A stretch of DNA of 48,936 bases. It comes from Candidatus Doudnabacteria bacterium (GTDB lineage: Bacteria > Patescibacteriota > Doudnabacteria > UBA920). Positions 4,254 to 17,917 of this stretch are shown piece after piece (position 1 is the stretch's first letter; each line of letters begins with the position of its first letter). The translations under genes and the position numbers were made by a program. The stretch spans positions 1 through 48,936 of the forward strand of contig CAIVSE010000077.1 in the NCBI GenBank assembly GCA_903908535.1, given 5' to 3'. The notes beneath the pieces are model-generated. The model did not search any database and was not told where the DNA came from. It was given only the letters and a program-made list of their open reading frames with translations.

Positions 4254-4298
4254 TGGAGCCCAAGTGCGGAATTGAACCGCAGACCTGCTCCTTACCAT
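4254..4298 (-). pseudogene. 3' half of a chromosomal tRNA-Thr(GGT) split by the element (attL)
   Basis: Minus strand: anticodon loop ATGGTAA, 3' anticodon strand GGAGC, variable loop AGGTC, T-arm TGCGG-TTCAATT-CCGCA, acceptor CTTGGGC and encoded CCA. The 5' half with the matching GCTCC stem and GCCCAAG acceptor lies 13.6 kb away at 17880-17917. Joined at the shared loop ATGGTAA, the two halves make a perfect 76-nt tRNA-Thr(GGT). The split follows from integration in the anticodon loop. Confidence 0.88.
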
Positions 4299-4487: not shown

Positions 4488-5429
4488 TTACTTGAATAAT
4501 GCAACCCGCAGAGCGTTAAGGCCAGACTGCAAATTAGTGTCTGGCAACCATCGCAAATACACATTTATTGTTGTCCGTACGTCTTTGTGCCCCATCATAG
4601 ATGATAACCGCAGCAAGTCTTTTGTGGCCACGTAAAAATTTACGGCAAAGGTGTGGCGAAACCTATGAAGATGGCATTTTAGTCCCGTCGCTTCTTCCAG
4701 TTTTTTTATGAAGTGTTTGCCCCCGTGTTCCGTAAAGTTCCTATCTTCGGAGCTGGAGACCCATAAGTATGGAGTGGTTAGGGTTTTGCGGGCTTCCAGG
4801 TAAGTTCCCAGGTGGCTCATTAAATTTTCTTCAATTGGGACATAGTGGGTAATACGGGACTTTGAGATTTCCGCCCGCACGGTTAAAATTTTATTTTTTA
4901 AATCAAGGTCATCCAGCCGTAAACCGAATAATTCTTCTTTACGAACCCCAGTCATGCTTAGGAAATAAATCATGGTGTTATTTCGGATTCGCTGCAAAAG
5001 ATTCTCCCAAACAATATTGCGGCCCACGGCTAGGCAAATTTTGTCAAACTCCTCCAGTGTGAAAGCCCTTCTATCCGTGTACGAAACTTCTGGGTGCGGA
5101 ATTTTGTCAAAAGGGTTAGCGGTTATATGTCCTCCAATAACCAGCCAATTAAAGAATGAGCTTAACTTCCCCCTTATTGTGGATATGCTTGAATTTTTTA
5201 ATTTGCGGACTATCAGATGTTTGCCGACCTTCCTTTCCCGTGAGTTTAAGTAAGCAAAAAGATTTACCATTAGTTCGGGATTTAAATCTGCGGCCTGAAT
5301 GTCTGGCTTAAATTCAGTCAACAAGCCAAAATTATCCCGATAATTTTTTACGGTTTTTGGGGACTTCCCTTCCAAGTTTTCCGCCTGATTTACAAAATCT
5401 TCAAATAATTGTTTTAAGTTTTTTTCCAT
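4488..5429 (-). CDS. Tyrosine recombinase / integrase, left end
   Basis: 313 aa. The N-terminal SAM-like core-binding domain (about residues 1-110) is followed by the catalytic domain. The catalytic set is visible: Arg in TGVRKEELF, Lys in the beta-hairpin region ISKSRI, His-x-x-Arg in HRFRHTFAVNF, His in MMGHKD and the nucleophile Tyr in INVYLRW. It reads toward the left tRNA half, which is the usual position for an integrase next to its att site. It overlaps the upstream ribbon-helix-helix-like gene by 29 nt, so the two are probably co-translated. It differs from the two right-end recombinases and could be the integrase proper, with the others belonging to a second, nested or tandem element. 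Confidence 0.92.
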   Translation of the reverse strand: MEKNLKQLFEDFVNQAENLEGKSPKTVKNYRDNFGLLTEFKPDIQAADLNPELMVNLFAYLNSRERKVGKHLIVRKLKNSSISTIRGKLSSFFNWLVIGGHITANPFDKIPHPEVSYTDRRAFTLEEFDKICLAVGRNIVWENLLQRIRNNTMIYFLSMTGVRKEELFGLRLDDLDLKNKILTVRAEISKSRITHYVPIEENLMSHLGTYLEARKTLTTPYLWVSSSEDRNFTEHGGKHFIKKLEEATGLKCHLHRFRHTFAVNFYVATKDLLRLSSMMGHKDVRTTINVYLRWLPDTNLQSGLNALRVALFK

Positions 5430-6286: not shown

Positions 6287-6400
6287 GAACAAATTACCAG
6301 TTTTCGTGGTATTGCCAAAATAAGCTAAAAGAGTTAATATTAAAGCACAATTTAATCAGTTTGCCTAACCCCACAGCGGTGCTATGGGCATGGCAAAAAC

Positions 6401-6503
6401 CCACTCTCATGCAGCGACGGTCGTCTGTCTTGCTTTAGCCATGAGAGTGGTCTCTGCCCGAAAGGGCAGATGGAGCAAGCGGGCGGCCTTTTTTGATGCC
6501 CGC
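6401..6503 (+). promoter_or_regulatory. Structured leader of the first secreted-protein gene
   Basis: Three stacked inverted repeats precede ATG 6517: CCACTCTCATG / CATGAGAGTGG (11 bp, 6401-6411 with 6440-6450), TCTGCCC-GAAA-GGGCAGA (7 bp with a GNRA loop, 6453-6470) and GCGGGC / GCCCGC (6479-6503) whose loop holds a T6 run. The compact arrangement looks like a cis-regulatory RNA. It matches no riboswitch class I can recall. The paralogous gene at 11823 lacks it. Confidence 0.45.
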
Positions 6504-6516
6504 AGAAAGACTATTT

Positions 6517-7890
6517 ATGAAAAAACTTCTATTGACGATTTTAGTAACAATTTTACTGGCTCCTACTTTGGCTTCGGCTGATGATTTTGAAGGCTTAAGT
6601 TCTTTGGGCAGCCAAACAACCACAACGACTCCAAGTCCTATATCTTTTTACTATGGGGATAACAACCCTTCAACAAATATTACGTTTAAAACCAACTGTA
6701 AAAAATTACCGTCGGTGTCAATTGCTGGATTGCCGGCAGGTGCTTTCACTCCTTCTGTTAGCACTAACCCACGTTCACTCGGTTCCTCCGTTTTGTTTGT
6801 AACAGTTTCATTCGGCGGCGCGTTACTTGAAGAGGGGCAATTTTCAATAAGCATAACCCTAACAGATGCCTGTAATCCAAATTTAACACAAACCACTTTA
6901 TACAATGTAAAAGTTTCAAGCACCTTTGATGTAACAAGTAATTACGTTTTGCCATCTGGATATACCGGCCTTGCCTATAACGCGGCCATCAATTTCCAGT
7001 ATAAAGGAATATATACCCCCTCCGTAAGTTTTACTGGATTACCTGCGGGGATGACTCTTAGCAAGGTGGTGCAAAATTCCCCCAATACCTCCGGCATTAT
7101 TCCCGTGCAGTCTTACTCTGTGATTTTAAGCGGCACCCCAACACAGTCTGGTTTCTTTAACCCACAACTATTTATAACTGACCCGACAACTGATAACACG
7201 GACACATATTCTGACAATTTGTCGCTTACAATTATCCAAAGCTCTAATGCTCCCACAATCCAGGCTTCCACCACTCCAGTCACTAGCAGCCAGCCTGGAA
7301 ATATAACCGACCTGGCAGGGACAAATATAAGCTCTAATGGCACGGTATATATGATTACCGCCAGCGGCCAAAAACGGCCGTATACTTCCGCTGGAGCCTT
7401 CCTGTCTTATGGTTTTAATTCCTGGGCTGACGTTGTTACAGCCAGCTCGGCCGATTTAGCTTTACCAACTGGAAATTTTATTCCACCACGGGACGGGAAG
7501 ATTATCTGTTCCAACAAGGGAAGTGATACGGGCACTTGTTATTTAATTACCAACAGCGAAAAGGCCGCCTTTACCAGTTCGGCGGTATTCACAGGTTTAG
7601 GGTTTAGTTTTTCTAATTCTTTGAGCGGTGACGTTTCTTTCCTAAATTCTGCTCCCAATATAAATTCTGTAACTCAAACTCACCCAGAAGGGGTTTTGTT
7701 AAACAAAGGCGGGACGATTTACCTTGTCGGCAACAATGGCTTGCTGGGAGTTCCCGATGTAAACACTTTGACCTCTTGGGGTTACACTTCCAGCGATTCA
7801 GTGCTTGCTAATTCGGCCGACAATGCTTTGCCGCAAATAGGCGTTATGCCCGCTCATACCGCTGGGGCTTTAAATCCTTTTGGAAACTGA
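6517..7890 (+). CDS. Secreted protein: Ig-like N-terminus, three-repeat C-terminal domain (paralogue 1)
   Basis: 457 aa from ATG 6517 (the track start at 6493 adds eight residues ahead of the signal peptide). MKKLLLTILVTILLAPTLASA is a Sec signal peptide. Residues about 25-250 contain putative-Ig (He_PIG-like) modules, shown by GLPAGMTLS and LSGTPTQSG. The C-terminal ~190 aa hold three repeats of about 58 aa with the core G-T-x-Y-x-I, ending in ALNPFGN: GTVYMITASGQKRPYTSAGA, GTCYLITNSEKAAF and GTIYLVGNNGLLGVP. It is probably cell-surface or extracellular, with the repeat domain as a common anchor or binding module. The protein at 11823-13205 shares this tail almost exactly. The gene opens the cargo part of the element. 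Confidence 0.75.
   Translation: MKKLLLTILVTILLAPTLASADDFEGLSSLGSQTTTTTPSPISFYYGDNNPSTNITFKTNCKKLPSVSIAGLPAGAFTPSVSTNPRSLGSSVLFVTVSFGGALLEEGQFSISITLTDACNPNLTQTTLYNVKVSSTFDVTSNYVLPSGYTGLAYNAAINFQYKGIYTPSVSFTGLPAGMTLSKVVQNSPNTSGIIPVQSYSVILSGTPTQSGFFNPQLFITDPTTDNTDTYSDNLSLTIIQSSNAPTIQASTTPVTSSQPGNITDLAGTNISSNGTVYMITASGQKRPYTSAGAFLSYGFNSWADVVTASSADLALPTGNFIPPRDGKIICSNKGSDTGTCYLITNSEKAAFTSSAVFTGLGFSFSNSLSGDVSFLNSAPNINSVTQTHPEGVLLNKGGTIYLVGNNGLLGVPDVNTLTSWGYTSSDSVLANSADNALPQIGVMPAHTAGALNPFGN
7313..7890 (+). repeat. ~580-bp direct repeat, copy 1 (C-terminal module of paralogue 1)
   Basis: The segment encoding the three-repeat domain is highly similar at protein level, and largely at DNA level, to 12630-13205. 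The two copies lie in the same orientation about 5.3 kb apart and bracket the SIR2/NERD/nuclease cassette. Confidence 0.75.
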
Positions 7891-9377: not shown

Positions 9378-10412
9378 ATGGATTTTAAAATGGGGGTAAT
9401 TAAATATATGCCAAAACCAGTAATAATCTTGGGGGCAGGTGCTTCTTATGACTACATTCACAGAGGCGATAGTAACCTTCCGCTTAATCACGAGCCTCCT
9501 TTAGCGAATAACCTTTTTGATAAAAGGTTTGAAGGGATTATTAAGCATTTTCCGCAAGTGATGAACCTTTCAGCCAGCGTGGCCTCGGCTTCACGGCAAG
9601 GAAAAGGATTGGAAGAACTCTTTACAGAGATTCAGGCCAAAAGTTCGCAGAATCCCGAAAGACTGCAACAGCTCATAGCCTGCCAGTTCTATCTGCAAAA
9701 ACTTTTTAGAGATATTACCAGCAATTATGGGAGCCAATCCCAAAATAATTACAGCGAGCTTATTAACCAGATTAGGGACAATGGCGGCCAAGCGTGTGTG
9801 GTAAATTTTAACTATGACTTGCTGTTTGAGCAGGCTACTGGGTACAAATTAGAAAATGTTGGCGATTTTGTCGCCCACCCTATCAAAATAATTAAGGTTC
9901 ACGGGGCCTATAACTGGACTAAAGTTTTGCGGAACGCTTTTCGCATCCCAAGCGACGGTGACACTTACGGCTTTTTGATGAACAACCCAGAACATCTACT
10001 AAAAAATCCATCAGAAGATACAGACCCAATTTATATTCAGGACGGCTACGGTATGACGGATGGCAGTGGAGATAAATACTTCTTTTATCCCTGGATTGCA
10101 ATTCCCATTGCAGATAAAAATACCTTCGTTTGCCCGCCCGACCATCTGGTCGTATTAAAGGAAGCGTTGCGGCAAACCGATAGAATTTTAATTGTGGGAT
10201 GGAAGGCGGCAGACCAACACTTAGTTAAGCTAATGGGAGATGTTGTTCAGCAGGCTGTAAAAATAATTATTGTTAGCGGTTCAGGTAAAACCGCAAGGGA
10301 AATCCAAGCTAAATTATCGGGAGTAATAAACGCCACTTTTCCAAACTCGGTAGCTACGTTCAGCGATTTCGTGGGTAGTCAAATTTGCCAAGAATTTTTT
10401 CAAACCGAATAA
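9378..10412 (+). CDS. SIR2-like NADase domain protein (candidate defence effector)
   Basis: 344 aa from ATG 9378; ATG 9411 (MPKPVIILGAG) is also possible. SIR2-type NAD-fold landmarks are visible: GAGASYD near the N-terminus (nucleotide-binding glycine loop), VVNFNYDLLFE (the N-x-D region carrying the expected catalytic Asn), KVHGAYNW (the expected catalytic His) and ILIVGWKAADQHL (the late Rossmann strand with Asp-x-His). SIR2 domains of this group act in several antiphage systems by destroying NAD+ once triggered. TATAAT lies 10 nt before the first ATG. The gene ends 1 nt before the NERD gene starts, so the two are one operon. Role as a defence effector is inferred from family and context. 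Confidence 0.82.
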   Translation: MDFKMGVIKYMPKPVIILGAGASYDYIHRGDSNLPLNHEPPLANNLFDKRFEGIIKHFPQVMNLSASVASASRQGKGLEELFTEIQAKSSQNPERLQQLIACQFYLQKLFRDITSNYGSQSQNNYSELINQIRDNGGQACVVNFNYDLLFEQATGYKLENVGDFVAHPIKIIKVHGAYNWTKVLRNAFRIPSDGDTYGFLMNNPEHLLKNPSEDTDPIYIQDGYGMTDGSGDKYFFYPWIAIPIADKNTFVCPPDHLVVLKEALRQTDRILIVGWKAADQHLVKLMGDVVQQAVKIIIVSGSGKTAREIQAKLSGVINATFPNSVATFSDFVGSQICQEFFQTE

Positions 10413-10413
10413 T

Positions 10414-11226
10414 ATGCCCTACCTAAGTTTGCCCTTTGCCAGAAAGACTTGGATTGTAAACGCTACAAAGTTTTGGACCACGCTGGCCTTAATCTTCGCC
10501 CTGCTTGCTCTTGATGTAGTTTGGTTAGTTGTCAGGGCAAAGACTTTAAATTTTCGTATCTTTGTAGTCACCCCTCCCCTGAAAGCCGTAATATCTTTGC
10601 TAATAATTTTGGCCATAGTTGTTCTGTTCATTTGGTTTATGGTTAAAGTGGATGAGCGACTGGACGCCAGGATGGAAAAGTGCTTGGCCAATTATGAACA
10701 CGCCCGCAAAGGTGATGACGGGGAAATCCTGGTACGTAAATATTTAAACCAATATTTGGACGAGAAACAGTACAAAATCTATCCTAATTACAAGATTCCC
10801 GCAGTAAAGGCGGATTATGACTTCGTAGTTGTCGGCCCCAAGGGCGTAATTTTAATAGAAGTTAAAACTTATGACGTCCATACAGTCTTTACCTACGATA
10901 AAGCATATGGCCAATCAGCGGATGGCAAATTATTTTCACTCTGGGATATTCGGGAAAAAGTTAAATGGCGGGCTGGGCAGTTAGAGAGGTATTTGGCCGA
11001 ACACGGCTTGGATAATATCAACGTACGCAAGGTGGTCCTGTTTGTGAATCTCAAATCGGTGGAAATCCAGGGCGGCTGGAAGAATAAATATAAGGTCTAT
11101 GTGGCCCAGGGTATTCCCGCATTTGCTGATTACCTTTTTCGCCAACAGCCAAGCCCCCAGTTTACGCCCGAATATGTTAAACGAGTTTGCGATGCCTTTA
11201 ATATTCAAACTACACCAGCTGTATGA
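10414..11226 (+). CDS. Membrane-anchored NERD-domain nuclease-like protein
   Basis: 270 aa. Two hydrophobic helices (about residues 18-40 and 48-72) anchor the protein. A NERD domain follows: GDDGEILVRKYLNQYL, then YDFVVVGPKGVILIEVKTYD, which carries the Asp and Glu-x-Lys of the nuclease-related fold. NERD proteins are predicted PD-(D/E)XK-like nucleases and often sit with other DNA-processing or defence genes. It starts 1 nt after the SIR2 stop and overlaps the next nuclease-like gene by 4 nt (ATGA-type), so stoichiometric expression of all three is likely. Membrane anchoring suggests it acts at incoming DNA or at the envelope. Confidence 0.8.
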   Translation: MPYLSLPFARKTWIVNATKFWTTLALIFALLALDVVWLVVRAKTLNFRIFVVTPPLKAVISLLIILAIVVLFIWFMVKVDERLDARMEKCLANYEHARKGDDGEILVRKYLNQYLDEKQYKIYPNYKIPAVKADYDFVVVGPKGVILIEVKTYDVHTVFTYDKAYGQSADGKLFSLWDIREKVKWRAGQLERYLAEHGLDNINVRKVVLFVNLKSVEIQGGWKNKYKVYVAQGIPAFADYLFRQQPSPQFTPEYVKRVCDAFNIQTTPAV

Positions 11227-11807
11227 TTAACGACATCTTGGAACAAACCGCAGAGGACTATTTTCGGCATTTGGGATATTTCACCCAGCACAACGTTAAG
11301 TATAAGCCGAACAAGAAGGGGCCTGCTTACGCCGTCCATTCCGACATAGATATAATCGGCATTAACCCCACTAAACGTGGTATAGAGCGGGTTGTGGTGG
11401 TAAGCTGTAAGAGCTGGCACGGCGGCATACGGATAAAAGGTTCCCTAGATGCCATAAAAAGGAGTTTAAGGAGAACAAGGAAGATTTACCGTGAAGTAGC
11501 CCAGCCGTACTGGTCAAAGGCTTTAAAAGATAAAGTCTACGAGCTGACTGACCAAAAAACTTTCGTCTTCTATTTTTGTTGTACCAGGTACGATAAACGG
11601 CATAGGGAACTGTGGGAGGGTGACAAAGAGTTTCGGAAAAATCTGGCTGGCTGTAAGATTAAACTACTGGACTTTGAAGAAATGGCCACGGCCATATGGC
11701 CCGAAATGCACATTATTACACCTTCCAACAGCGAACTCGGCAGGCTGTTCCAGTTCATCCACTTTAGCGGCGGGAAATTACATTATAAGGATTTAATTAA
11801 AAAATAA
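11223..11807 (+). CDS. Restriction-endonuclease-like (PD-(D/E)XK superfamily) protein
   Basis: 194 aa, overlapping the NERD gene by 4 nt. The N-terminus (ILEQTAEDYFRHLGYFTQHN) resembles the first helix and basic segment of Mrr-like nucleases. SDIDIIGINP supplies the expected metal-binding Asp, and VVVSCKSWHGG lies where E-x-K is normally found, with Ser in place of Glu. Such a change may mean an alternative acidic residue completes the site, as in other divergent PD-(D/E)XK families, or that catalysis is lost. It closes the SIR2-NERD-nuclease operon. No methylase accompanies it, so it is not a standard restriction-modification enzyme. Confidence 0.65.
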   Translation: MINDILEQTAEDYFRHLGYFTQHNVKYKPNKKGPAYAVHSDIDIIGINPTKRGIERVVVVSCKSWHGGIRIKGSLDAIKRSLRRTRKIYREVAQPYWSKALKDKVYELTDQKTFVFYFCCTRYDKRHRELWEGDKEFRKNLAGCKIKLLDFEEMATAIWPEMHIITPSNSELGRLFQFIHFSGGKLHYKDLIKK

Positions 11808-11822
11808 TTAAGCCAAAACTTT

Positions 11823-13205
11823 ATGAAAAAAATTTATGTCAGCCTCTTCGTTCTTGTGCTTTGCTTGGCCTTCTATGCGCCCAATGCTAAAGCAGAAAAT
11901 CAAGCGTTTCAAATAATAACAACATCGCCTTTGCCCAATGCTTCCCTTGCTGATTATTATTCAGCTACCATTAAATATATTTATAGCGGCATTTGTGACC
12001 CTATTGTTACTACTCAAGGACTACCGCCGGGCATCAATTTAGGAAGTGGCTCAGTAAATGCTACTGATTTAGGCTCAACCACTCTAGTGGGTGCTCCAAC
12101 ACAAGAGGGGGTCTATACGGTTAAGTTTTATTTAAGTGATTCTTGCGGTTCCACCTTAGAACAAGATTTTAGCCTAACAGTAGTAAGTTATGTTCAAAAA
12201 GTTACAACTACTCAGGCAGGGGGCGCAACTACTGGTTTTCCTTACAATTCTACAATTAGCTTTGACTGGTTTGGCCCCACTGTCCCCGCAACAATAGTTT
12301 CAGGTTTGCCCCCAGGAATTGCCTCAAGCATTCCAGTTATGACCCCTGTTCAACAGGCTTCGGTTAGTGGCTTTTCGGACGCCATAACTTTGACCGGCAC
12401 GCCAACCCAAGCTGGTGTCTATAATGTTTTGGTTACAGTAACTGACCCTACTGCAAGTACAACTTTAGATTATCCTTTATCCATAGGCGCAAATCCATAT
12501 GCGTCCAATAATCCGCAACCAGCCGCTAGTCCAACATCCGTTCCAACGCCAATAGTTTCGAATCCCGCCATAACTAATCAAACAACCCCCACAACCGTAA
12601 ACCAAACATCAACCAGCGGCACAGACCCCGCCGGCACAAATGTTATCTCTAACGGTATAGTCTATGAAATAACCGCCAGCGGCCAAAAACGGCCATATAC
12701 TTCGGCTGGAGCTTTCTTGTCTTACGGTTTTAACTCCTGGGCCAATGTAGTTACAGCCAGTTCCGCCGATTTAGCTTTGCCCACGGGGAATTTTATCCCG
12801 CCACGTGACGGGAAGATTATTTGCTCCAACAAAGGAAGCGATATGGGAACTTGTTACCTAATTACAGATAGCAAAAAAGCCGCCTTTACCAGTGCGGCCG
12901 TGTTTACAGGTTTAGGATTTAGTTTCTCCAATTCCTTGAGCGGTGATGTTTCCTTTTTACCATCTGCCCCAAATATCAGCTCTGCCAGCCAGTTGCATCC
13001 TGCGGGCATTTTAGTAAATAAGGGCGGCACAATTTACCTCACAGGCGATAATGGACTGCTTGGTGTGCCAGATATGGCCACACTGACCTCTTGGGGTTAT
13101 TCCTTAACCGATTCTGTCCCCGCCAATGCCGCCGATTCAGCTACGGCGCAAAGCGGCGTAATGACAGCTCACACGGCTGGGGCGTTGAACCCATTTGGTA
13201 ATTGA
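11823..13205 (+). CDS. Secreted protein: Ig-like N-terminus, three-repeat C-terminal domain (paralogue 2)
   Basis: 460 aa with signal peptide MKKIYVSLFVLVLCLAFYA. The N-terminal half has two putative-Ig modules (GLPPGINLGSG, GLPPGIASS, LTGTPTQAGVY) and a Pro/Thr/Ser-rich linker. The C-terminal ~190 aa are almost identical to those of the protein at 6517-7890, including GQKRPYTSAGAFLSYGFNSW, DGKIICSNKGSD and the terminal ALNPFGN, while the N-terminal halves have diverged strongly. This pattern suggests either selection on a shared anchor/binding module or gene conversion, with fast change of the exposed part. It starts 15 nt after the nuclease gene and may belong to the same transcript. Confidence 0.75.
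   Translation: MKKIYVSLFVLVLCLAFYAPNAKAENQAFQIITTSPLPNASLADYYSATIKYIYSGICDPIVTTQGLPPGINLGSGSVNATDLGSTTLVGAPTQEGVYTVKFYLSDSCGSTLEQDFSLTVVSYVQKVTTTQAGGATTGFPYNSTISFDWFGPTVPATIVSGLPPGIASSIPVMTPVQQASVSGFSDAITLTGTPTQAGVYNVLVTVTDPTASTTLDYPLSIGANPYASNNPQPAASPTSVPTPIVSNPAITNQTTPTTVNQTSTSGTDPAGTNVISNGIVYEITASGQKRPYTSAGAFLSYGFNSWANVVTASSADLALPTGNFIPPRDGKIICSNKGSDMGTCYLITDSKKAAFTSAAVFTGLGFSFSNSLSGDVSFLPSAPNISSASQLHPAGILVNKGGTIYLTGDNGLLGVPDMATLTSWGYSLTDSVPANAADSATAQSGVMTAHTAGALNPFGN
12630..13205 (+). repeat. ~580-bp direct repeat, copy 2 (C-terminal module of paralogue 2)
   Basis: Second copy of the block at 7313-7890, same orientation. Recombination between the copies would fuse the two secreted-protein genes and delete the membrane protein, the SIR2/NERD/nuclease cassette and the small ORF. 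Confidence 0.75.
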
Positions 13206-14339: not shown

Positions 14340-15137
14340 CTACTTCCCGAACAGCCAGTGAAAGTCCTGTAACGTAGAAGTAATTAGGTCGTAGACGAAC
14401 AACCCAAATATTATCAACATTCCAGCCAGTCGGTACAGAGCCAGCAACAAGCGTGGGGCCTTAATCTTTTCTAATGACGTTTCTATAATACGTCCACCGT
14501 CCAGCGGCAGAAATGGCAGCGTGTTCATCAATCCCAAACAAAGGGACAAAGTGCAAGCCATCATCACCCCTTTGGTAAAGTTCAGGTTGTAATGGTAAAC
14601 ATCGGCAGCAAGTTTTAAGTATCCGCCGTTTGACTTAAATGCTTCGGGGTGAAAAACGGAGGCGTGGGCCATAAGAGCTAATAAGCACAGCCCCAAGAGC
14701 GGAACCCCGTATCGGCAGAATTGTTTCTTTAGCGGCAGTAAAACTAAGGCCATAACTGCACAGGCTCCAGCTATTCGGTAGTCGGCCATTGTCAGTTCGC
14801 AGACAGCCAGAACCACGAGTGGATAAAAGATACTCCCCCAAACACCCGCCCCGTAAATCACGGAGGATTCGCTGTAAGGCAGCCACCGTTGTATTTTCAG
14901 GCTGTCCCTGGTTGAGTTCTTGACGTAAGCCATAAACGGCAGGATGTTGAGGTAAAACGGCGTGTTGGGTAGCAGCCAAGGAATACTAAGCCGCAGCCGA
15001 GGCCAAGATGTGATTGGTACCCCAAAGCCCCATTCTCTGACCCTGAGCCCACGTTTTAACATCTCACGGGCGTGTTCATACTCGTGGAGCAGAACAAAAA
15101 TAACCGTAACCAAAATACACGTCACCAAGCCAAGCAT
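14340..15137 (-). CDS. M50-type membrane metallopeptidase (site-2-protease-like)
   Basis: 265 aa from ATG 15137. This start has AAGGGGG about 7 nt upstream and lies in a ~20-nt leader after a promoter at 15160-15189; the track start (GTG 15158) would sit at the transcription start. The protein has about six hydrophobic segments. The zinc-binding motif HEYEH lies in the first helix (VIFVLLHEYEHA), and the second motif NTLPFLPLDGGR near residue 220 supplies the third metal ligand. M50 peptidases cut substrates within the membrane, often releasing signalling domains. A single-gene unit with its own promoter and terminator inside the element; it might regulate envelope or element functions. Substrate unknown. 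Confidence 0.78.
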   Translation of the reverse strand: MLGLVTCILVTVIFVLLHEYEHAREMLKRGLRVREWGFGVPITSWPRLRLSIPWLLPNTPFYLNILPFMAYVKNSTRDSLKIQRWLPYSESSVIYGAGVWGSIFYPLVVLAVCELTMADYRIAGACAVMALVLLPLKKQFCRYGVPLLGLCLLALMAHASVFHPEAFKSNGGYLKLAADVYHYNLNFTKGVMMACTLSLCLGLMNTLPFLPLDGGRIIETSLEKIKAPRLLLALYRLAGMLIIFGLFVYDLITSTLQDFHWLFGK

Positions 15138-15159
15138 ATTTGTCCCCCTTTGACTCACA

Positions 15160-15227: not shown

Positions 15228-15614
15228 TTAAACATCCTGGTCCGCACTGTTTTTTGCTGAATAATCTGTAATGTTAATTATGAAGGGTTGACTTTCGGCG
15301 TTACCCAACTCTTGTCGTGGGCTAAACTCTTTCTTTAGTTTGCGTTCCAAATACCATTTCGCTTCGTTTGAGTTGTCCAAACTCTCCACAATTGTTTGAC
15401 GGGCTTTTAAAATTGGCTGTTGCCGCAGTCCGTCAATTTTGTCGGAAAATTCGGGTTTTTCTTTCAAAAAATTATAGAAGGTATCCCTGCTGATTCCCGC
15501 AAAGGAACAGGCTTCTTCGGCCGTTGCGTCAATGGCAAAAGCCGTCTCCAGTTTTCGGACAACGGTTGCCGTCATCACCGATGGCCTGCCAACTTTTTTA
15601 GTTTTAGATTTCAT
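15228..15614 (-). CDS. HTH DNA-binding protein, terminase-small-subunit-like
   Basis: 128 aa. GRPSVMTATVV at the start and the block TAEEACSFAGISRDTFYNFL (about residues 30-50) form a homeodomain-like helix-turn-helix resembling small terminase subunits and transposase-associated HTH proteins. The basic C-terminal part (ERKLKKEFSPRQE) may aid DNA contact. It begins immediately after the stop of the recombinase gene at 15615-16520 and is the third gene of that operon. A role as excisionase, recombination directionality factor or DNA-packaging recogniser is possible; no terminase large subunit is present in the window. Confidence 0.65.
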   Translation of the reverse strand: MKSKTKKVGRPSVMTATVVRKLETAFAIDATAEEACSFAGISRDTFYNFLKEKPEFSDKIDGLRQQPILKARQTIVESLDNSNEAKWYLERKLKKEFSPRQELGNAESQPFIINITDYSAKNSADQDV

Positions 15615-16520
15615 TTAAAAGTTCACCCCCTGAAAGGTTGCGTAATAGCGGGGTAAGTCCGCTTTATGCTTTATATTGTCGTTGTATACCTGTAACATCT
15701 CCAGGCTTTTGTGTCTGGTGTATTGGGCAACTTCCAACAAGTCGCCTTTATAAGTTTTAATTAACATGGTAGTAAAGTAGTGCCTGAGGCCGTGGACACA
15801 TTTTGTAATATTGAGTTCGCCAAGCAGGCATTTTACAATTTGTCTTAACGCCCTGGTTGTCAGCCTGTGATTTATGCTGTTGTTGCTCCTGCTGGTGAAC
15901 AGCGGGCCACTGCCAACCTTATTGGCTTTAGCATAAATCTTTAAATTTTTAACCGTTTCGGGATGCAGGTTGATAATTTCCTTGTCATCTCTCCCCTTTC
16001 CCCGCACAAAGGCTACCCCACTTACAAGGTCTAAATCTTTTACGTCCAGCCTAGCAATTTCTATCTGCCGTAATCCTTGCAGGGTTAAAAGGCTAAAAAT
16101 GGCCTTTAGGCGTGAGCTTTCGGGATTTTCGGGTAAAGATTGGAGTTTTTGCGAAACGCTTTGGATTTCGGCTTCTGTAAGGCCGTCTCGTTTATGCTTC
16201 TTGCTTTGGTTAAAACTTTTTACGTTTTGGGTGATGTCTGCGGGTAAAGCCCCTTGTCGGTTAAGCTCCTTTAGGAAGATTTTGGCTGCCGCCAAATATT
16301 TGTTTTTAGTCGCTGTGCTGTAATCGTTACGACCGTCCAAATACCGTTTGAACTTTAAAAAGCTGTTGCGGTCAAAGCCTTCCCTTTGGATGAAGCCCAC
16401 GAACATACCAATGCGGCACTGGTAATCTTTCCGTGTGCCTTCGCTAACATCTAGGTTTTCAAAAATCCTTGCGGCTTGCTGTTCGGGGTTGCTTATGACT
16501 TGTAGAGTTTTAGTGTCCAT
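15615..16520 (-). CDS. Tyrosine recombinase 2, right end
   Basis: 301 aa. The core-binding domain covers residues ~20-110 (SEGTRKDYQCRIGMFVGFI, NKYLAAAKIFLKELN). The catalytic domain shows Arg in TLQGLRQIEIARL, Lys in the GKGRDDKE turn, His-x-x-Arg in VHGLRHYFTTML, His in TRHKS and Tyr in MLQVYND. The gene lies 4 nt after the upstream recombinase and directly abuts the HTH gene. Two adjacent tyrosine recombinases of similar size often act as a pair on asymmetric or multiple core sites, as in XerC/XerD-like or Tn554-like arrangements; which applies here is not visible. Confidence 0.9.
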   Translation of the reverse strand: MDTKTLQVISNPEQQAARIFENLDVSEGTRKDYQCRIGMFVGFIQREGFDRNSFLKFKRYLDGRNDYSTATKNKYLAAAKIFLKELNRQGALPADITQNVKSFNQSKKHKRDGLTEAEIQSVSQKLQSLPENPESSRLKAIFSLLTLQGLRQIEIARLDVKDLDLVSGVAFVRGKGRDDKEIINLHPETVKNLKIYAKANKVGSGPLFTSRSNNSINHRLTTRALRQIVKCLLGELNITKCVHGLRHYFTTMLIKTYKGDLLEVAQYTRHKSLEMLQVYNDNIKHKADLPRYYATFQGVNF

Positions 16521-16524
16521 ATGA

Positions 16525-17418
16525 TTATAAATTATTTAATGGGTGTTTGGTCATTTGCGAACGTAAATGTTCGGCACTGGCTGACAAATAAATTGTCGTG
16601 GTCTTAATGTCCGAGTGTCCCATCATTCGGGAAAGGCTGTAAATGTCGCATCCGCCTTCCAGCATCAGCGTGGCAAAAGTGTGCCGCAGCTTATGAATGG
16701 TAAACTTAATTTTTGACGCTTTAACCATAGTTAGCAAGAGTCTTTTTAAGCCGCTGTCCGTGAATCCTTTATCGTGGTTCAGGGAGATAAAAAATTCTGG
16801 GCAAGTCCTTTTTAGCCGCTTCCGCTCTTCCAGGTATTTTTGCAGACTTTCCGCCAGCTTATAGCATATCGGCAGGATTCTATCCTTACCGCCTTTCCCC
16901 TGCCGAATAAATATGGATAAATTTTCCAGGTCAACGTCGGTATACTTTAAATTTAGCAGTTCCTTTTTCCTTATGCCCGACAGGATGAAGGTGGAAAATA
17001 TGGCGTGGTTCCTGTAACGCAGGAATTTATAAGAATACGGGAAATTGTACGAGACTTCCAAAATTTTCATCGCTTCCTGCCGAGTCAGTTTTGGCGGCAG
17101 TCTTTTCTCCAGCTTTGGGATTTCTATGTCGTCCGTGGGGTTAAACTGCATATAACCCTCTTTCACGCACCACCTAAAGAATACGGCTAAAGATTTGTGG
17201 TAGCAGATGAACGTGTTGGGCGTCCAACCTTGGGAAGTCCTGCCGTAGTAGAATAATTCCCGTGTATTGTCTTTGGTGACCTGCTCCAATTCCTCTATGC
17301 CCGCAAACCTCGTATAATAATTTATTACCTGTTTGTAGCGTTTTAATGTCGGTTTTGAATAGCCTTTTATGTACTGCGAATAATCGCAAAACTTTTGGGC
17401 TAATGTCGCTATTTGCAT
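16525..17418 (-). CDS. Tyrosine recombinase 1, right end
   Basis: 297 aa, XerC/D-like. Residues ~1-105 form the core-binding domain (SKPTLKRYKQVINYYTRF). Catalytic residues: Arg in LSGIRKKELL, Lys in GKGGKDRILP, His-x-x-Arg in IHKLRHTFATLML, His in MMGHSD and Tyr in KTTTIYL. It is the first gene of the right-end operon and starts only 39 nt after the intron-containing tRNA-Thr(GGT). Its ATG lies in the T-run of the tRNA terminator, so expression may need read-through from the tRNA promoter. That would couple recombinase supply to tRNA transcription. Confidence 0.92.
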   Translation of the reverse strand: MQIATLAQKFCDYSQYIKGYSKPTLKRYKQVINYYTRFAGIEELEQVTKDNTRELFYYGRTSQGWTPNTFICYHKSLAVFFRWCVKEGYMQFNPTDDIEIPKLEKRLPPKLTRQEAMKILEVSYNFPYSYKFLRYRNHAIFSTFILSGIRKKELLNLKYTDVDLENLSIFIRQGKGGKDRILPICYKLAESLQKYLEERKRLKRTCPEFFISLNHDKGFTDSGLKRLLLTMVKASKIKFTIHKLRHTFATLMLEGGCDIYSLSRMMGHSDIKTTTIYLSASAEHLRSQMTKHPLNNL

Positions 17419-17456: not shown

Positions 17457-17741
17457 TGGAGCCCAAGTGCGGAATTGAACCGCAGACCTTCTCCTTCACT
17501 TTTACCTCAATTTCTAACTGGCTACCTGGCCGCCAGTTGTTATATAAGGGTTAGACTGTATCTTACGCTTACCGTAAAGGTTTAGCGTTCCTTGTCAGTC
17601 GTTCGGGCGATTGCTCGCCACGGTCTTGGCCATTGCGGGCTATTAACCGTAATTCGGATTTCATTAAAATGTTTCCATTTTAACGGGCAAGCCTCTTGTA
17701 AGGCCACCATGGAGATGCTCTACCAACTGAGCTACTTGGGC
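17457..17741 (-). tRNA. tRNA-Thr(GGT) interrupted by a group I intron (element-encoded copy)
   Basis: Exon 1 (17706-17741): acceptor GCCCAAG, D-arm, 5' anticodon strand TCTCC and loop start ATGGT. Exon 2 (17457-17496): loop end AA, GGAGA, variable loop, T-arm TGCGG-TTCAATT-CCGCA, acceptor CTTGGGC and encoded CCA. The spliced product is a perfect 76-nt tRNA-Thr with anticodon GGT. It has the same acceptor, D- and T-arms as the chromosomal tRNA that the element splits, differing only in the anticodon stem (TCTCC/GGAGA instead of GCTCC/GGAGC). It most likely replaces the function lost by integration. The intron lies between positions 36 and 37, inside the sequence used as the integration core. 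Confidence 0.88.
17497..17705 (-). ncRNA. Group I self-splicing intron, 209 nt, in tRNA-Thr(GGT)
   Basis: Exon 1 ends in U, and the exon GGU can pair with GCC of the internal guide to give the P1 helix with the U-G wobble at the splice site. The intron's last base is G. P2 is TTAAAATG-GAAA-CATTTTAA; P5 is an ACGGT / ACCGT pairing; P6 is GGCGA-GCAA-TCGCC. P7 is formed by GACTG (after GAAC, the R-element position) and CAGTC in AAGATACAGTC, close to the classical S element AAGAUAUAGUCC. P8 is ACGCT / AGCGT and P9 is AACTGGC / GCCAGTT. It encodes no homing endonuclease. Small tRNA introns of this class are known from bacterial tRNA-Leu, -Ile, -Arg and -fMet; a tRNA-Thr host is less familiar to me. 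Confidence 0.85.
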
Positions 17742-17744
17742 AAA

Positions 17745-17767
17745 CAACGGTATAAATTTTTGTGAAC
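17745..17767 (-). repeat. Right subterminal inverted repeat (candidate recombinase arm site)
   Basis: Minus strand GTTCACAAAAATTTATACCG, then TTG, the inverted counterpart of 4361-4381. It lies between the split tRNA 5' half and the intron-containing tRNA. Confidence 0.6.
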
Positions 17768-17879
17768 TTTGACCAGCCCACGACCTGTTTAGGGCGGAAC
17801 AGGGTCATCCTACTCTTCTCTTTTGGCATTTCTGCTTTTGGATTAGAGCAATTCCTTGATAACAAGCAGGGCCTGTTTA

Positions 17880-17917
17880 TTACCATGGAGCTGCTCTACC
17901 AACTGAGCTACTTGGGC
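17880..17917 (-). pseudogene. 5' half of a chromosomal tRNA-Thr(GGT) split by the element (attR)
   Basis: Minus strand: acceptor GCCCAAG, D-arm GCTCAGTTGGTAGAGC, anticodon strand GCTCC and loop ATGGTAA, after which the sequence departs into the element (TAAACAGGCC). The 3' half that completes it is at 4254-4298. Transcripts from here would give only a tRNA 5' half. Confidence 0.88.

Follow-up and report, generated by a model that had tools for sequence, protein, structure and literature searches.

Integrative elements of the kind described here break their host's single tRNA-Thr(GGT) gene and carry a replacement that is probably hidden from their own integrase, either by an intron or by recoding of the anticodon stem. 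We consider this reading, which derives from sequence comparisons, to be the likely one. The element from which it was developed lies in a contig of 48,936 nucleotides from Candidatus Doudnabacteria, and the whole of this stretch of DNA is referred to below as the window.

The tRNA-Thr(GGT) gene of the window is on the minus strand, beside the TPR, tsf and rpsB genes, and is cut in the anticodon loop (Table 1). The core sequence ATGGTAA is found on both sides of the element, within the tRNA gene, and the flanking stems GCTCC and GGAGC pair perfectly. When joined, the broken halves (17917–17880 and 4298–4254) give one perfect tRNA-Thr(GGT). The element between them is 13,588 bp (13.6 kb) in length. 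Neither of its att ends regenerates a tRNA; both halves stay partial. A complete tRNA-Thr(GGT), hereafter the rescue tRNA, is present at 17741–17457 of the minus strand and precedes the gene for the integrase IntA. Its anticodon loop is split by 209 nt, between ATGGT and AA. The rescue shares the strand of the broken 5′ half and follows it downstream, with the attachment site on one side and the integrase on the other. The outermost anticodon-stem pair is T-A in the rescue and G-C in the broken gene. The initial annotation of this DNA had described both the split at ATGGTAA and a full tRNA 138 nt inside the right end of the element. Both descriptions are correct, the cores being at 4292–4298 and 17880–17886 and the distance being measured from the attR core. 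It had also pointed to relatives as a place to look for the empty site. Such sites are present in relatives of the same family (e.g. G039), where an intact, intronless tRNA-Thr(GGT) occupies the syntenic rpsB-tsf-TPR locus.

Table 1. Coordinates of the integration site, the rescue tRNA and other genes of the element in the window.
Feature	Position	Strand	Remarks
Displaced host tRNA-Thr 3′ half	4254–4298	−	..TTG ATGGTAA GGAGC..TCCA; core 4292–4298 (attL)
IntL, third tyrosine recombinase	4488–5429	−	Near attL; homologues in other elements
Cargo block	9378–11807	+	SIR2-like 9378–10412; NERD 10414–11226; third protein 11223–11807
Cargo M50 peptidase	14340–15158	−	
Terminase-small-subunit-like protein	15228–15614	−	Downstream of IntA and IntB; phrog_4102, E 6.3e-20
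IntB, second tyrosine recombinase	15615–16520	−	
IntA, Xer-like tyrosine recombinase	16525–17418	−	Adjoins rescue tRNA; Pfam PF00589, E 2.8e-29
Rescue tRNA-Thr(GGT) 3′ exon	17457–17496	−	CCA included
Rescue tRNA group I intron, 209 nt	17497–17705	−	Between U36 and A37; P1 with U.G at 5′ splice site, P3–P9, P9.0, terminal G
Rescue tRNA-Thr(GGT) 5′ exon	17706–17741	−	Ends at U36 (ATGGT)
Element arm, attR to rescue tRNA, 138 nt	17742–17879	−	Starts TAAACAGGCC, motif kept in related elements
Broken host tRNA-Thr(GGT) 5′ half	17880–17917	−	Ends ..GCTCC ATGGTAA, then TAAACAGG; core 17880–17886 (attR)

In a pattern search of 27 genomes, nearly every element genome proved to have a single broken and a single rescue tRNA-Thr(GGT), and no genome yielded a third copy. 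The genomes in which the rescue is the sole intact copy found include G035, G084, G261 and G611, each 100% complete. No further intact tRNA-Thr(GGT) was found in the genome of the window, which is 87.7% complete, or in complete genomes that harbour an element of this type. The claim that the element supplies the tRNA that it breaks is supported. Likewise, counting tRNA-Thr(GGT) genes, as had been suggested, left the rescue as the only intact copy found in the element genomes checked, several of which are 99–100% complete. The near identity of the window's rescue exons to the broken gene could also be accounted for if the host had possessed two tRNA-Thr(GGT) genes in tandem from the outset and the element had hit one of these neighbours, so that the rescue would be a native paralogue. 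However, the gene pattern matches in 41 of the 49 genomes of the order, nearly always once. Furthermore, across many families the rescue is always found inward of the attachment site, within the element, and it adjoins IntA in all but one case. We regard a native paralogue as very improbable.

The same integrase family does include classical islands. Those designated L225 (Thr GGT), L247 (Thr TGT) and L248 (Lys TTT) have an intact tRNA beside the integrase and an exact 45–47 nt copy of the tRNA 3′ part at the far end. Hence, the window might hold an ordinary tRNA-restoring island with a misread fragment or, alternatively, an assembly artefact. Against this, the att ends regenerate no tRNA, the rescue is 138 bp inside the element with a stem pair of its own, and the layout recurs in independent assemblies. 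In the window, a 21-nt T-arm/acceptor motif occurs twice, and shuffled sequences gave an expectation of none. This, together with the same layout in many independent assemblies, excludes chance as the source of the arrangement. An ordinary island or an artefact seems to us less probable still than a paralogue, and all three explanations were rejected for the window element.

The Rfam group I model RF00028 scored 13.1 bits on the insert in the window's rescue, against a cut-off of 50; this cut-off governs detection and does not define group I introns. No match to this model at E ≤ 0.5 was found in eight related loci. Because Rfam gave no match at the gathering score, we tested for a group I structure using our own alignment of 40 introns at the same position, with counts of paired bases. 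In the alignment, 96% of cells were paired and 30 pairs had changes on both sides. The covariation score was 0.454, compared with 0.128 in shuffles and no more than 0.085 in slid controls, and was above that of 500 out of 500 shuffles. The aligned introns share an exon GGU that pairs with an internal guide, a U.G pair at the splice site, P9.0 and a terminal G. Judged by covariation across the 40 sequences, and not by the Rfam score, the insert is a group I intron, as the initial annotation had proposed.

In four element-free Doudnabacteria genomes (86–99% complete), the sole tRNA-Thr(GGT) gene contains an intron. Since these genomes have no other copy, we argue that introned tRNA-Thr(GGT) genes function. 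The four genomes and the covarying group I structure both support a functional intron, which would splice itself out. Promoter and terminator scans around the rescue tRNA were at chance level; hence, we can only infer which promoter it uses.

The layout is widespread. Among elements with related integrases in Patescibacteria, 28 combine a broken 5′ half of tRNA-Thr with a complete rescue ~130–200 bp downstream of it. The intron is present in 12 of the 28 rescues and absent from the other 16. Homologous elements with intronless rescues, which the initial annotation had named as evidence that would refute its reading, thus exist; they refine that reading, in that the intron is one of two solutions. 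Two further genomes, from a search of the order, have two 5′ halves 172–178 bp apart, with the intron in the inner copy and a relative of IntA adjoining. A second complete element, of 24.9 kb, is found in G035; it has the same layout, its opposite end holding the 3′ half, and the exons of its rescue are identical to both broken halves. Searches with the motif and with IntA extend the layout to Buchananbacteria, Moranbacteria, Vogelbacteria and further families. Further genomes from the orders around G670, G551 and G665 yielded no new elements. In viral contigs, the intron motif was found in one contig, unlike this tRNA-Thr(GGT), and IntA matched only distant relatives (28–29% identity). A contig filed as Methanoperedens, an archaeon, begins with an introned tRNA-Thr and the closest relative of the window's IntA (L153). 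In the element L229, the rescue tRNA-Thr(GGT) is ~300 bp inside the other element end, around +11045 from IntA.

Each rescue was compared with the broken copy in the same genome. The anticodon stem and loop were identical to those of the broken gene in 8 of 12 intron rescues but in 0 of 16 intronless rescues (Fisher p = 1.6e-4; this and the other p values treat elements as independent, ignoring relatedness). Intronless rescues had 0.40 mismatches per base in the stem and 0.08 in the acceptor and D arms. For intron rescues, the equivalent values were 0.10 and 0.05. When partners were permuted, the acceptor and D arms proved to be host-matched in both classes of rescue (p ≤ 0.0004). For the anticodon stem, by contrast, a host match was confined to intron rescues (p = 0.0008), with p = 0.23 for the intronless class. 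The stem of the L229 rescue is also recoded, with CCGCC versus CATCC. Within the IntA clade of the window (at least ~58% identity), position 29 is T in 16 of 16 broken genes and 12 of 12 intron rescues, whereas each of the 4 rescues that lack an intron has G or A there and never T (p = 5e-4). The IntA tree contains three changes of intron state, with only two contrasts on well-supported branches, and a phylogenetic independent-pairs sign test had too few pairs to have any power. Because intronless rescues have changed stems, and intron rescues mostly keep the stem of the broken gene, the intron and stem recoding appear to be two alternative means of keeping the rescue copy from being recognised by the integrase.

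The idea that the intron shields the rescue from the integrase therefore gains comparative support, in that intronless sisters carry a recoded stem instead; the intron is only one of two solutions. The accompanying idea, that the intron destroys the 7-base core, needs adjustment. In the window the core is indeed interrupted, reading ATGGT, intron, AA. However, the first bases of the intron in L134 restore ATGGTAA. The two stem arms are probably what an intron-split rescue loses, and not the 7-bp core itself. The intron regenerates the ATGGTAA core in 1 of 13 element introns compared with 21 of 45 host introns (p = 0.011).

We propose the following mechanism. The element inserts by tyrosine recombination, its target being the anticodon loop in the only tRNA-Thr(GGT) gene of the host, and both halves are left broken. 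The rescue would then be transcribed, perhaps by read-through of the broken half from the native promoter, after which self-splicing of the group I intron would give a functional tRNA. Comparative evidence supports a further step: the rescue DNA would have to be invisible to the element's integrase, or the replacement would be cut and the element converted to another form. In one solution, an intron would part the stem arms of the att site by ~200 bp, leaving the exons free to stay identical to the host tRNA. In the other, an intronless rescue would rely on compensatory base changes in the anticodon stem.

Relatives that depart from the usual layout bear on this mechanism. L245, whose IntA is 70% identical, has a standard stem but neither an intron nor a broken half. 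Its intact tRNA is flanked by the native TPR gene on the upstream side and by IntA on the downstream side. This tRNA appears to have been regenerated classically, as expected if an unprotected rescue recombines. In L224, the 3′ half at attL is identical over 46 nt to the 3′ part of the rescue and mispairs with the broken 5′ half, which suggests recombination with the rescue and counts against shielding. L249 and L250 have a rescue-type layout for tRNA-Lys(CTT), the broken half being ~150 bp upstream of the complete tRNA. In L249 the 5′ stem strand of the rescue is that of the broken gene and there is no intron, which counts against the shielding idea.

The intron was probably acquired rather than invented for its role in rescue, because it is common in host tRNA-Thr(GGT) genes of Patescibacteria. 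In a public genome set, 60 contigs match the intron motif; nearly all can be read as tRNA-Thr(GGT) genes that have the intron in the identical place, and most are outside elements. For the same reason, the intron in the element need not be adaptive. Thus, the rescue could be real and the intron a passenger, arriving with a captured introned host gene and persisting by clean splicing, with blocked recombination incidental. The many contigs outside elements fit such an origin, as do two further observations. First, the intron of the element L145 nests inside host introns of the Taylor/Vogel type, its host's lineage (97/87). Second, the sister species G001 and G002 (L044 and L091) differ by presence or absence of the intron at a syntenic tRNA-Thr(GGT) locus with no element; this difference is intron gain or loss on its own. 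What a passenger intron leaves unexplained is that anticodon stems are recoded specifically in intronless rescues and that element introns avoid an AA start. We therefore think a passenger unlikely and prefer a replacement hidden by intron or recoding. On the IntA tree, the rescue type appears in two tRNA-Thr(GGT) clades, between which lie clades that target other tRNAs. Element and host introns are intermixed. The IntA of L145 is sister to that of G035 (99/98). Because the L145 intron groups with host introns while its IntA is sister to that of G035, cassettes of tRNA and intron seem to move between hosts and elements.

The NCBIfam Xer models scored below cut-off on IntA. The third protein of the cargo block (11223–11807, plus strand) resembles a restriction enzyme by eye, and profile searches gave no family match for it. 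No large terminase or capsid gene was recognised among the scanned ORFs of the window element. A terminase match was seen only in this element, with none in the scanned ORFs of L239 and L241. PICI-type phage satellites encode an integrase and a terminase small subunit without structural genes, and are mobilised by a helper phage. The window element is similar in having an integrase, a terminase-small-subunit-like gene, defence-like cargo and, among scanned ORFs, no recognised capsid genes, and it may be a phage satellite. The resemblance is one of gene content; PICI-type satellites also have a helper phage, a packaging site and regulation. The cargo of other elements is also of defence type: SIR2 with an AbiU2-like HEPN protein in L239, and a reverse transcriptase with a Schlafen/AlbA protein in L241. 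A LOOT RNA (RF03000, 55.9 bits) is present in the window element at 6362–6488 of the plus strand, just upstream of a predicted secreted protein. Two secreted-protein genes of the element share 300 nt at 82% identity (7306–7605 and 12621–12920), a recent duplication or conversion.

Bacterial tRNAs can contain group I introns, for example Azoarcus tRNA-Ile. Such introns in CPR tRNAs are noted in PMC8172020. The intron described here resembles both in being a small group I intron in the anticodon loop, and differs in being in tRNA-Thr(GGT), in a rescue copy on a mobile element. Islands that target tRNA genes by means of tyrosine integrases are collected in Islander (PMC4383910), and archaeal examples are reviewed in PMC8371274, according to which integration restores the target tRNA. 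The present elements share with such islands a tyrosine recombinase, a tRNA target, a 7-bp overlap in the anticodon loop, palindromic stem flanks and a displaced fragment at one end. However, known islands restore the target by bringing one part; here, both halves are broken and a complete extra tRNA is inside. Randau and Soll, as described in PMC4390854, proposed that disrupted tRNA genes protect against integration. Their idea similarly has interruption of a tRNA gene blocking integrases but concerns disrupted (split or intron-containing) host genes, whereas here a group I intron is in the integrating element's own gene. Sugahara et al. (2012), as described in PMC8371274, regarded an intron-bearing attP as a tRNA-intron vector. 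In both cases mobile elements carry tRNA introns. In theirs, however, recombination carries an attP-borne intron into the target; here, the introned tRNA is distinct from attP, and recombination takes place elsewhere. Among open-licence papers, we found no report of an integrating element that carries a complete replacement tRNA, leaves the target broken and makes the copy unreadable to its own integrase, nor any of intron and stem recoding as alternatives.

Tentatively, these observations might reflect an evolutionary contest in Patescibacteria, although we would not put this forward as the probable course of events. An intron between U36 and A37 would abolish the att site and could spread in hosts as immunity; elements could in turn adopt introned tRNAs or recode the stem, and exchange cassettes. 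With the elements described here, the old idea of tRNA introns as a guard against integration can be tested by comparison in nature, and a self-splicing intron gains a plausible function in bacteria.
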